A stretch of DNA of 35,432 nt from Mariniphaga sp. (GTDB taxonomy: Bacteria > Bacteroidota > Bacteroidia > Bacteroidales > Prolixibacteraceae). The notes under the pieces are model-generated. The model saw only the letters and a program-made list of their open reading frames with translations. It did not search any database and was not told where the DNA came from. Shown piece after piece: positions 33,247 through 35,432 of the stretch. Position numbers and translations under genes: made by a program. Position 1 is the first letter of the stretch; the number at the start of each line of letters is the position of its first letter. The DNA lies in assembly GCA_025355585.1 (NCBI GenBank), contig JANXZJ010000072.1, positions 1-35,432 of the forward strand, read 5' to 3'.

Positions 33247-33275
33247 TTCACTGGTAGAAATAATGGCATTGACTT

Positions 33276-33826
33276 AAAACACAAATGGGAACGACTCTTT
33301 CAAGTTGTTCCCATTTCGTCGCTTCTGAATTGCTTCAACAGCGGCGTCAAGTTACGGTTATTGTGGTTGGCTGAATTTTAATCTTCGTCTTGCTTGCGCA
33401 TTCTGTCGATTAGTTCTTCAACCCGTCGCTTTCAGGTTCGGCTTTTTATAGCTTCACCTTCGGGCTGTCCCTTCGGTTTTCCTTGCGGTCGACCTTCCCG
33501 GACGGAGCGTTTTTACAGAAAACAGGTTGGAACATCACTTTCGATCAGTACTACTGCTGCCTGGAACATTGAGACTTTTCAGCTGTTCTGTTCCCCGGAA
33601 TATTTCACGAAACTTGCGTCTCCTTTTTTATCCGCTCGTTAACTCAACCTTCTAATGAACGACTGGCGTTTTTCCGGTTGACTGAACTAATAAGATTGCT
33701 CTTTTCGTCCAACCTCTGACTCTTCAGTTGCGCAAACCCGAGGGCTTGAATGATCCGGTTCTTTACTCAGCTAAGAGTCTTTTCCCGTTTCCACTACTTC
33801 AAAGTAACCTTTTATCGCTGACCTGA
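33276..33826 (-). ncRNA. Large structured RNA, copy 1 (unrecognised class)
   Basis: A predicted minus-strand transcript of about 550 nt from the promoter at 33832-33863 to the hairpin at 33283-33316. I do not recognise the RNA class. No ORF is conserved between copies: the only longer frame of the others (ATG GTT-less, starting MRKQDED) ends here after seven codons. The terminal hairpins, a CAAGCC/GGUUUG stem with a CUCG loop (UUCG in copy 2), a UCAACC/GGUUGA stem and a GAGAC/GUCUC stem are shared with copy 2. It is the copy nearest to thuA and ends about 30 bases from that gene, tail to tail. Confidence 0.65.
33283..33316 (-). terminator. Terminator of RNA copy 1
   Basis: AAATGGGAAC (33283-33292) pairs with GTTCCCATTT (33307-33316). 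On the minus strand the inner part extends as ACTT-GAAA-GAGT with a GAAA tetraloop, and TTTGTGTTTTAAG follows. The T-rich side exists only on the minus strand, which sets the direction of transcription. Confidence 0.75.
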
Positions 33827-33831
33827 TATTT

Positions 33832-33863
33832 CAAAGATAGGCCACTTCATATCCTCTTGCAAA
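33832..33863 (-). promoter_or_regulatory. Promoter of RNA copy 1
   Basis: On the minus strand: TTTG (33863-33860), exactly 20 bases, TATCTTTG (33839-33832). Both boxes are perfect matches to the Bacteroidota housekeeping promoter. The same arrangement with the same spacing occurs in copy 2 although the 20 bases between differ. Confidence 0.85.
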
Positions 33864-33886
33864 TATTTTCGACCTTTTGTATCAAC

Positions 33887-34288
33887 TATGTATCAGCTAA
33901 GTATTAACCTGAGTTATTAACAATTGTCAATTACTTTAAATCAGTGATAAAGTTGATATTTAGGATCTTAATGAAAAATTATTGTTCCGTGGTTTTTCTC
34001 CGGACTTTTTCACGATATATGTCAGTTGATTATCTGTATATTAAACCTTTCTTTTGAAGTTAAACTGATCCGGGAAAAGAAAGTTGCAAAGCGTAAATTA
34101 ATACTAAATTTAAGGGGAGGATTCTTTAGTTTAAATTTGAATTTTGCATGGTCGAATTGCCGATAAGGAAATCCGAAAAGATAAGGGAGATGATCAGAAT
34201 TTAGTTGAAGTTCAGTTGAACCCGATTCAATTTATATCAAATACTTATATTCTCTTCCCCGGGCAATGAAGGATAAAATTTGGGTGAG
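33887..34288. other. AT-rich linker between repeat copies 1 and 2
   Basis: A stretch of about 400 bases without a gene. Short blocks near its left end (TATCAACTATGTAT, GATATTTAG) recur in the linker after copy 2, showing that the whole unit was duplicated and the linker diverged faster. The longest ORF I see is under 30 codons. Confidence 0.6.
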
Positions 34289-34290
34289 AC

Positions 34291-34843
34291 CTAAAACACA
34301 AATGGGAACGACCCTTTCGAGTAGTTCCCATTTCGTCGTTTTTGAATTGCTTCAACAGCGGCGTCAAGTTACGGTTATTGTGGTTGGCTGCATTTTCATC
34401 TTCGTCCTGCTTGCGCATTCTGTCGATTATTTTTCAACCCATCGCTTTTGGGTTTTGCCTTTTACAGCATCACCTTCCGGCTGTCCCTTCGGTTTTCCTT
34501 GCGGTCGACCTTCCTGAACGGAGCGTTTTTACAGAAAACAGGTTGGAACATCACTTGCGATCAGTACTTCTGCTGCCTGGAACATTTGAGACTTTTCAGC
34601 TTTCCTGTTCCCCGGAATATTTCACGAAACTTGCGTCTCCTTTTTTATCCGCTCTTTAACTCAACCTTCTAATGAACGACTGGCGTTTTTCCGGTTGACT
34701 GAACTAATCAGATTGCTCTTTTCGTCCAACCTCTGACTCTTCTGTTGTGCAAACCCGAAGGCTTGAATGATCTGGTTCTTTACTCAGCTAAGAGCATCTC
34801 CCCGTTTCCACTACTTCAAAGTAACCTTTTATCGCTGACCTGA
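34291..34843 (-). ncRNA. Large structured RNA, copy 2 (unrecognised class)
   Basis: A predicted minus-strand transcript of about 553 nt with its own promoter (34849-34880) and terminator (34300-34333). Seen hairpins on the minus strand include CAAGCC-UUCG-GGUUUG near 34756, GCUC/GAGU near 34785, UCAACC/GGUUGA, GAGAC/GUCUC, AACCC/GGGUU near 34440 and the UAAC/GUUG stem at 34353-34371. Compared with copy 1, most changes in these stems keep pairing. A 42-codon frame starting MRKQDEDENAANHHN runs through the terminator and is not kept in copy 1, so I treat it as chance. Confidence 0.68.
34300..34333 (-). terminator. Terminator of RNA copy 2
   Basis: AAATGGGAAC (34300-34309) with GTTCCCATTT (34324-34333). 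On the minus strand the inner stem is ACTC-GAAA-GGGT where copy 1 has ACTT-GAAA-GAGT: both changed pairs stay pairable (U-A to U-G, U-G to C-G). TTTGTGTTTTAGG follows. Confidence 0.75.
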
Positions 34844-34848
34844 TATTT

Positions 34849-34880
34849 CAAAGATATGTGATCACCCACATCCCTGCAAA
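34849..34880 (-). promoter_or_regulatory. Promoter of RNA copy 2
   Basis: On the minus strand: TTTG (34880-34877), exactly 20 bases, TATCTTTG (34856-34849). Identical boxes and spacing to copy 1. Confidence 0.85.
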
Positions 34881-34903
34881 TATTTTCAGCCATTTGTATC
34901 AAC

Positions 34904-35223
34904 CTTAAATCAACTATGTATTAACATGTGTTACAAACATTTGTTAATAATATTATTGTGGTTAGTTGGTTAATATTTAGATATTTGCGATTTGTGCTGA
35001 TTTTTCCGGTGAAGAATTATTTTATAACCTGTTGATTTCCGGCTAACAAAACCGGTGAAATGGGGTCAAACTGATTCCGAATTTATGTGCGGAAAAGCGT
35101 GAAATTGCCTGGATCATTATATGGGTAAGAAAAGGGTTAAAACAGATATTTTTAATGTGTTAGGGTAACACCGGAATATGTTTGGATTTTCAAATTGCCG
35201 AATGTCCAAAATGCAGTGGGGGC
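34904..35223. other. AT-rich linker between repeat copies 2 and 3
   Basis: About 320 gene-free bases. It shares scattered blocks with the previous linker near its left end (ACTATGTATTAAC, AATATTTAG) and is otherwise unrelated. CCGGT at 35008 and ACCGG at 35050 could pair. No ORF that I would defend. Confidence 0.55.
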
Positions 35224-35226
35224 CTT

Positions 35227-35432
35227 AAAACACAAATGGGAACGACCCTTTCGAGTAGTTCCCATTTCGTCGTTTTCGAATTGCTTCAGCCGCGGCGTCA
35301 GGCTACGGTTATGGTGGTTGGCTGCATTTTCATCTTCGTCCTGCTTGCGCATTCTGTCGATTATTTTTCAACCCATCGCTTTTGGGTTTTGCCTTTTACA
35401 GCATCACCTTCCGGCTGTCCCTTCGGTTTTCC
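35227..35432 (-). ncRNA. Large structured RNA, copy 3 (3' part only)
   Basis: The 3' 200 nt of a third copy; its promoter would lie about 350 bases beyond the window. The hairpin at 35287-35305 reads on the minus strand UAGCC-loop-GGCUG where copies 1 and 2 have UAACU-loop-UGUUG, with the 9-base loop unchanged. The terminator hairpin is at 35234-35267. Confidence 0.6.
35234..35267 (-). terminator. Terminator of RNA copy 3
   Basis: AAATGGGAAC (35234-35243) with GTTCCCATTT (35258-35267), inner stem and GAAA loop as in copy 2, followed on the minus strand by TTTGTGTTTTAAGG. Confidence 0.75.

Follow-up and report, generated by a model that had tools for sequence, protein, structure and literature searches.

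A tandemly repeated gene for a predicted large structured noncoding RNA in Mariniphaga sp. and its relatives in the Bacteroidota

The window analysed here, 35,432 nucleotides (nt) of Mariniphaga sp. DNA (contig JANXZJ010000072.1, positions 1 to 35,432), carries in its last 2.2 kb three direct minus-strand copies of one unit, at 33275-33839, 34292-34856 and 35226 to the contig end, and this unit is very probably the gene for a large structured noncoding RNA. A preliminary description of the same DNA had placed the starts of the copies about 1,010 and 935 bases apart; the measured start-to-start spacings are 1,017 and 934. Copies 1 and 2 show 94% identity over 564 aligned bases, the same value being obtained by blastn, and the 207 visible bases of copy 3 (35226-35432), which represent its 3' part only, are 97% identical to copy 2. 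Both complete copies extend from a promoter -7 box to a terminator tail, and with starts deduced from the promoter the RNAs would span approximately 33276-33827 and 34293-34844.

A promoter of the Bacteroidota type, TTTG-N20-TATCTTTG, precedes both complete copies as had been proposed, with the -7 box at 33832-33839 and 34849-34856 and the TTTG -33 box at 33860-33863 and 34877-34880, respectively. The GGGAAC/GTTCCC hairpin with a T-rich tail noted earlier was seen at all three 3' ends in the form AAATGGGAAC...GTTCCCATTT, giving predicted terminators at 33275-33316 (hairpin 33283-33316, tail 33275-33282), 34292-34333 (hairpin 34300-34333, tail 34292-34299) and 35226-35267 (hairpin 35234-35267, tail 35226-35233). 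Promoter, terminator and copy direction all indicate the minus strand, in agreement with the preliminary description, and the unit has, by prediction, the promoter and terminator of its own expected of a large trans-acting noncoding RNA. Among the family members described below, TAnnTTTG is present in 124 of the 127 with enough flank, the pattern used for collection having required only TTTG and not the full element; many also have a T-rich block around the position expected for the -33 element, and the terminator hairpin is conserved in the 3' alignments of relatives. The G+C content of the RNA is 47%, that of the flank upstream 34%.

The units can be aligned over their full length, unlike the spacers of the array, in which 78.7% of the aligned columns are alike, compared with 74.3% on average and 79.5% at most over 20 shuffles; the exception is a stretch of about 80 bases directly upstream of the promoter that is 78% alike. 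As the units are 94% identical while the spacers are close to shuffled sequence, the units have been kept alike through selection or conversion. A search of the window's own genome with the unit found four places, namely the three window copies and positions 1-329 of another contig, C66 (L015). Query bases 1-329 match on C66 and query bases 363-569 in window copy 3, and the C66 sequence is probably the missing 5' part and promoter of copy 3, with about 33 bases lost between the contigs; possibly it is a separate fourth copy. The array has at least three copies. Beyond the RNA, C66 holds an open reading frame (ORF) that was taken, by reading rather than by a family search, for a putative sigma-54 type response regulator.

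The nucleotide search among related genomes suggested by the preliminary description was carried out with a single DNA sequence and gave weak matches in 8 other genomes of 198; seven of these 8 places hold a collinear relative, 59-70% identical over the longer aligned stretches. L011 (G022:C85) was dropped because its alignment showed a chance match in a coding stretch, and G022 has another match, by model, at C124. A covariance model (R1), built from 10 sequences and covering the final 104 nt of the unit, gave matches at E<=0.01 in 130 of the 393 genomes searched within the order, and in 82 of these the match lay below 1e-5. A second covariance model (R2), of the 3' domain only and built from 58 sequences, reached E<=1e-4 in 24 of the 395 genomes searched within the class. 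The genome of the window is included in both sets of counts. When R2 was applied to a draw of the phylum, 4 of 247 genomes matched at E<=0.001, these being the window's genome and three from the class search; which classes the draw covered is not evident from it, and so nothing firm follows about the RNA outside the class. Order and class are used here in the sense of GTDB, whereas NCBI places the Prolixibacteraceae in the Marinilabiliales and the Cyclobacteriaceae in the class Cytophagia.

Searching the GTDB genome collection with a pattern based on the 5' motif recovered at least 117 loci, 80 of them named, and among the matches listed 95 of these 117 have a 3' motif within range. The 5' motif was found with at most two mismatches at all 29 R1-derived loci (L016-L044), and in the class search, with the 3' domain as query, it was present 210-585 nt upstream with at most three mismatches at 20 of the 25 loci outside the window. 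Overall, a 3' motif in range accompanies the 5' motif at 130 of 153 places, corresponding to at least 123 distinct full-length members, of which 121 measure 263-649 nt (about 550 nt in the window) and two, longer than 700 nt, were excluded from the alignments. The remaining 23 places are without a 3' motif at one mismatch or fewer; 22 of them are pattern loci, and 8 of these lie within 450 bases of a sequence end. A credible 3' motif with two mismatches is present at L051 and L151. L055, L090, L098, L126, L132, L140, L155, L159 and L161, which are without TAnnTTTG, look like chance and were rejected as members; they include matches in Flammeovirga (L055), Lachnospira (L090) and Chloroflexaceae (L098). 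One weak model match in the window's genome (G000:C4:36673-36777, L191) is a terminator-like hairpin with a similar GGGAACTATTC; it has no 5' motif and was left uncounted.

Full members are carried by Draconibacterium aestuarii, Maribellus maritimus, a Mariniphaga record, a Sunxiuqinia record and a Lentimicrobium metagenome-assembled genome (MAG), and further by Cecembia (including Cecembia lonarensis), Mariniradius (including Mariniradius saccharolyticus), Aquiflexum, Pleomorphovibrio and Cognataquiflexum. The carrier families include the Prolixibacteraceae and Cyclobacteriaceae, in addition to certain other families in the GTDB class. The RNA is present in two Chlorobiota-labelled MAGs as well (L063, L075), and Perlabentimonas (L108) has a 5' motif at a contig end. 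In a MAG labelled Candidatus Delongbacteria (L106), a good 5' motif is cut by the contig end, and a member, a binning error or a transfer are all possible there.

In the architecture common to the family, the two ends of the RNA are joined by a helix, P1, inside which lies P2; the P3 hairpin and the terminator are outside P1, and a lineage-variable domain, many-armed in prediction, is enclosed by P2. In copy 2 the 5' strand of P1 (UCAGGU, 34838-34843, minus strand as for all positions given here) pairs with the 3' strand (ACUUGA, 34364-34369), both strands covarying with 98-100% standard pairs, and in copy 1 the equivalent 5' strand at 33821-33826 pairs with 33347-33352. P2 is formed in copy 2 by GGUU (34823-34826) and AACC (34382-34385), with 99-100% standard pairs and covariation. 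Between P1 and P2, a strongly conserved internal loop has GAG-N-GAUAAAA facing AAUAAC-N-GUA, represented in copy 2 by GAUAAAA at 34827-34833 and AAUAACCGUA at 34370-34379. AAUAAC is invariant in 58 aligned 3' domains that had been chosen by a motif containing AAUAAC (at most one mismatch), and since the GAUAAAA and AAUAAC stretches both formed part of the collecting motifs, their conservation has to be read with caution. The P3 hairpin region of copy 2 occupies 34335-34365 and has GCAA as its apical loop.

In an alignment of 121 members, six of the ten top covarying column pairs fall in P1, P2 and P3, with standard pairing of 99-100% in P1, 99% in P2 and 72-100% in the P3 hairpin, and P1 shows C-G/U-A/U-G and G-C/A-U exchanges. 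When 56 long members were aligned, the structure predicted by RNAalifold took in each of the ten top-scoring pairs whose standard pairing was 80% or more. The named structure of the 3' domain reached a covariation score of 0.392, compared with 0.215 when shuffled and at most 0.145 when slid, and four of five covariation measures were reached by 0 of 500 shuffles. The apical loop of P3 is of the UNCG class in 77 of 121 members vs 3 of 1,210 shuffled hairpins, and of the GNRA class in 10 of 121 vs 29 of 1,210, the clade of the window having GCAA. Of the ten members with a GNRA loop, six (GCAA, GUAA) have it where it would be expected, and the other four (GAAA in L016, L023, L103 and L109) are probably alternative folds. 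Exchange of the P3 loop between two stable tetraloop classes points to selection on the RNA and is hard to explain otherwise. Folding of 21 members of one clade gave a closed, many-armed prediction in which 23 of the 26 helices have more than one type of standard pair at some pair. Conserved structure is backed by covariation for P1, P2 and P3; the inner arms are predicted and less supported. In the long-class alignment, columns 116-122 and 220-226 are complementary (GCCGAAG/CUUCGGC), and pair 118-224 is 96% standard with a C-G/U-A exchange; these segments could form a pseudoknot or kissing contact, but they compete with a local UUCG hairpin and other pairs outside the structure score equally.

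The Rfam covariance-model check named in the preliminary description was made with all 4,227 families of Rfam 15, and no gathering-score match covered the RNA, either in the window or at 34 related loci, of which 30 are full members, two are cut by a contig end (L106, L108) and two are chance motif matches (L055, L098). Permissive scans of the window array, L050 and L160 yielded only matches far below gathering (best E 0.084), the only trace of a Bacteroidota RNA being a chance-level match to Bacteroides-1 on the promoter side of copy 2 (18.7 bits against a gathering score of 43, E 5.3). RNase P RNA and transfer-messenger RNA were rejected as identities, the genome having them at G000:C98 and G000:C112, respectively, as was 6S RNA, since the unit matches neither RF00013 nor RF01685. 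A guide RNA of the CRISPR, OMEGA or retron type was rejected because the copies, judged by eye, differ along their whole length and have no hypervariable segment. The models of OLE RNA (RF01071), GOLLD and ROOL were presumably among the families scanned; the RNA is comparable to these three in its size and elaboration but matches none of their models, and was assigned to none of them. It was judged to be new as an RNA family. The raiA motif RNA, a further structured bacterial RNA, is shorter than the Bacteroidota unit.

Bacteroidales-1, Bacteroides-1, 6S-Flavo and Flavo-1, treated as Bacteroidota RNAs in Weinberg 2010 (PMC2864571), are like the unit noncoding RNA candidates of this phylum, but gave no gathering-score match in the window. 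OLE RNA, which passages of PMC9723947 and PMC10898510 describe as about 600 nt long, intricate, with highly conserved stretches, confined to part of the bacteria and of unclear biochemical function, is by that account similar in size, elaborate structure, conserved stretches and limited bacterial range; it differs in occurring in Gram-positive bacteria, whereas the unit has no Rfam match and no protein gene recurring beside the RNA across lineages. GOLLD and ROOL are large ornate bacterial RNAs according to a section of PMC12286853 and in this respect resemble the unit, from which they are set apart by its lack of an Rfam match and the absence of its 5' pattern from viral contigs. Likewise, the raiA motif RNA or ModT, presented in a portion of PMC11706538 as a conserved structured bacterial RNA widely distributed in the Bacillota and at least one other phylum, is comparable in being conserved, structured and of broad distribution, but differs in the phyla reported there and in having no Rfam match to the unit. 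Paper searches within an open-licence library brought up no description of the RNA, an earlier mention being possible, and the earlier statement that no named class has such a layout went uncontradicted there. Words beginning with Bacteroid- or Cytophag- were absent from the main-text portions of PMC8632094 and PMC11109978 that were available.

Neither the 216 ORFs closest to the RNA at 121 places nor the 561 ORFs near pattern loci included a partner gene that was constant across lineages, and the recurrent clusters of neighbours look like lineage synteny. The RNA is not tied to one downstream gene, as both the neighbour families and their orientations vary. Because promoter, ends and fold are kept while the surroundings change, action in trans is most likely. 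Seventeen neighbour clusters had at least three entries, and one member of each was scanned, ten against NCBIfam and the other seven together with three of the ten against Pfam; 13 could be named and 4 could not. Neither a transposase or integrase nor an RNA-guided nuclease or reverse transcriptase gene was present among the 13 named recurrent families, one of which is a PIN-PhoH protein, 4 recurrent and 85 rarer ones being unnamed.

Within the order, 12 of 393 genomes had at least two matches below E = 1e-6. The copies are near neighbours on a single contig in G000, G072, G268, G156 and G038, and lie on different contigs in G176, G125, G376, G223, G007, G304 and G367; at L120 two copies are separated by about 2 kb that contain a gene. 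In G072 and G156 the units are 93% and 96% identical, compared with 69% and 76% for the upstream 120 bases, which is about the level of unrelated sequence. Such recurrent multiple copies fit a dosage-dependent RNA. The family is not defined by its tandem layout.

That the copies are independent transcription units for a noncoding RNA, as the preliminary description had concluded, is the best-supported reading in view of the near-constant TAnnTTTG, the covariation, the tetraloop classes, the terminator and the lack of an Rfam match. With a probability of roughly 0.62, we regard the unit as encoding a stand-alone, trans-acting large structured RNA of a new family, which serves as scaffold or regulator in a ribonucleoprotein via the core loop between P1 and P2, and whose dosage is raised by duplication; the statement on the RNA class taken by itself is very probable. 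The RNA would be transcribed from its own promoter and end at the predicted terminator hairpin, and the stable product would act in trans. The core loop would be the place where a protein or a second RNA binds; GAUAAAA and AAUAAC-N-GUA, as the most conserved unpaired letters, face each other beside the joined ends and are for that reason the likeliest partner site. The RNA may then function as a scaffold or regulator within a protein or RNA complex, and gene duplication would raise its dosage.

Several observations weigh against this reading. Transcription of the unit is predicted from sequence alone, and the scaffold role is the weakest step, a partner protein not having been found. The distribution of the family is patchy: G335, a single-contig genome of the window's own family that is 99% complete, has no match, and the RNA may be lost, absent or too diverged there, search filters being able to lose weak matches. 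The choice of motifs and the restriction to the matches listed bias the set of collected members. Three of the ten top covarying pairs involve terminator columns that pair in 42-79%, and another of the ten, 33-257, has only 6% standard pairing, so that shared ancestry evidently also yields high covariation scores. The RNAalifold structure of the long members was derived from the very alignment on which the pairs were scored, and of the 21 pairs ranked next only 3 are inside it; the 3' domain structure that was tested was likewise drawn from its own alignment, and the fifth covariation measure, change on both sides of a pair, was reached by 88 of 500 shuffles. One copy has a predicted minimum free energy that does not improve on that of dinucleotide shuffles (z -0.32), and although 25 members had a mean z of -4.6 against mononucleotide shuffles, the antisense strand was nearly equal at -4.0; minimum free energy by itself is uninformative for the unit.

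A protein-coding or mobile element, such as a transposon, prophage or integron unit, in place of an RNA gene might account for the tandem direct repeats and for plus-strand open frames of 82-105 amino acids within or overlapping the window units, which also limit the earlier statement that no reading frame is preserved. That statement held in so far as the frames are near shuffled length and vary in place: over 121 members the longest sense frame averages 54 codons vs 46 in mononucleotide shuffles and the longest antisense frame 66 vs 57, and ORFs of at least 90 amino acids change position and strand from member to member. Moreover, the paired columns covary, the named recurrent neighbours include no transposase or integrase, viral contigs gave 0 matches to one exact 5'-motif pattern, and phages and plasmids gave no blastn match to copy 2, the only copy searched being that of this species; we consider an explanation of this kind most improbable. 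An RNA-only complex with copies of itself, as suggested by analogy with GOLLD, ROOL and OLE, would suit the size, the many predicted arms, the stable tetraloops and the several gene copies, and the GCCGAAG/CUUCGGC segments could kiss or form a pseudoknot; as a local hairpin is in competition with this pairing, which scores no higher than many pairs outside the structure, and the 5' pattern occurs in no viral contig while GOLLD and ROOL are often phage-linked, the chance of such an assembly appears rather small.

Alternatively, the unit could encode a very long base-pairing small RNA in which the conserved unpaired stretches pair with messenger RNAs and the remainder serves as support. This is in keeping with a free-standing gene with a promoter-like box and a terminator, with the conserved unpaired core AAUAAC/GAUAAAA and with multiple copies in several lineages, but the conserved stretches are enclosed in an internal loop between two covarying helices, and helices are predicted along the whole RNA (in one clade), more than target pairing needs; we therefore hold it to be unlikely, with a chance that is small but not negligible. 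Sequestration of a protein, by a functional stand-in for 6S RNA or a sponge of the CsrB type, seems improbable. The RNA is purine-rich (58%) with many GGA stretches, as judged by eye, and RF00013 was undetected in all 12 genomes of the class that were scanned, 11 carriers and the non-carrier G335. However, the same model found 6S RNA in only 5 of 14 control genomes, the one Bacteroides being missed, weak sub-cut-off 6S-Flavo matches were seen in 3 of the 12 genomes (in the window's genome at C53), and the long single bulged hairpin typical of 6S RNA was not predicted; given the missed Bacteroides control and the absence in a non-carrier, no link to 6S RNA can be drawn.

The reading as a trans-acting structured RNA of a new family has a wider form, which we put forward tentatively and at slightly less than even odds, namely that the family is a new RNA machine with a wide distribution in the GTDB class Bacteroidia, in which a core-loop RNA forms a ribonucleoprotein or RNA-only particle and is amplified in tandem where needed. 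Few bacterial RNAs combine such a size with a conserved, elaborate structure, and the known ones have given unexpected biology, such as membrane particles and RNA nanocages. This RNA may have been overlooked because RNA discovery in the Bacteroidota leaned on gut Bacteroides. It is common in part of the phylum and offers compact testable parts in its promoter, its two ends, the conserved core loop and the named carrier isolates.

As regards the genes beside the RNA, the largest group has enolase (eno) upstream at 18 places and a UbiD-family decarboxylase downstream at 26, and the order eno-RNA-UbiD is conserved in this group only. At L064, L071, L072, L116, L122, L123 and others, the RNA lies between the enolase and UbiD-family (menaquinone-type) decarboxylase genes in the same orientation. 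Neighbours in other lineages comprise dnaG, accC, a ThuA gene (in the window and at L095), PhoH, L17 and a poly(A) polymerase/tRNA nucleotidyltransferase-like gene. A PIN-PhoH gene adjoins the RNA at L046, L066 and L158, downstream in one case and upstream in two, which may be due to chance.

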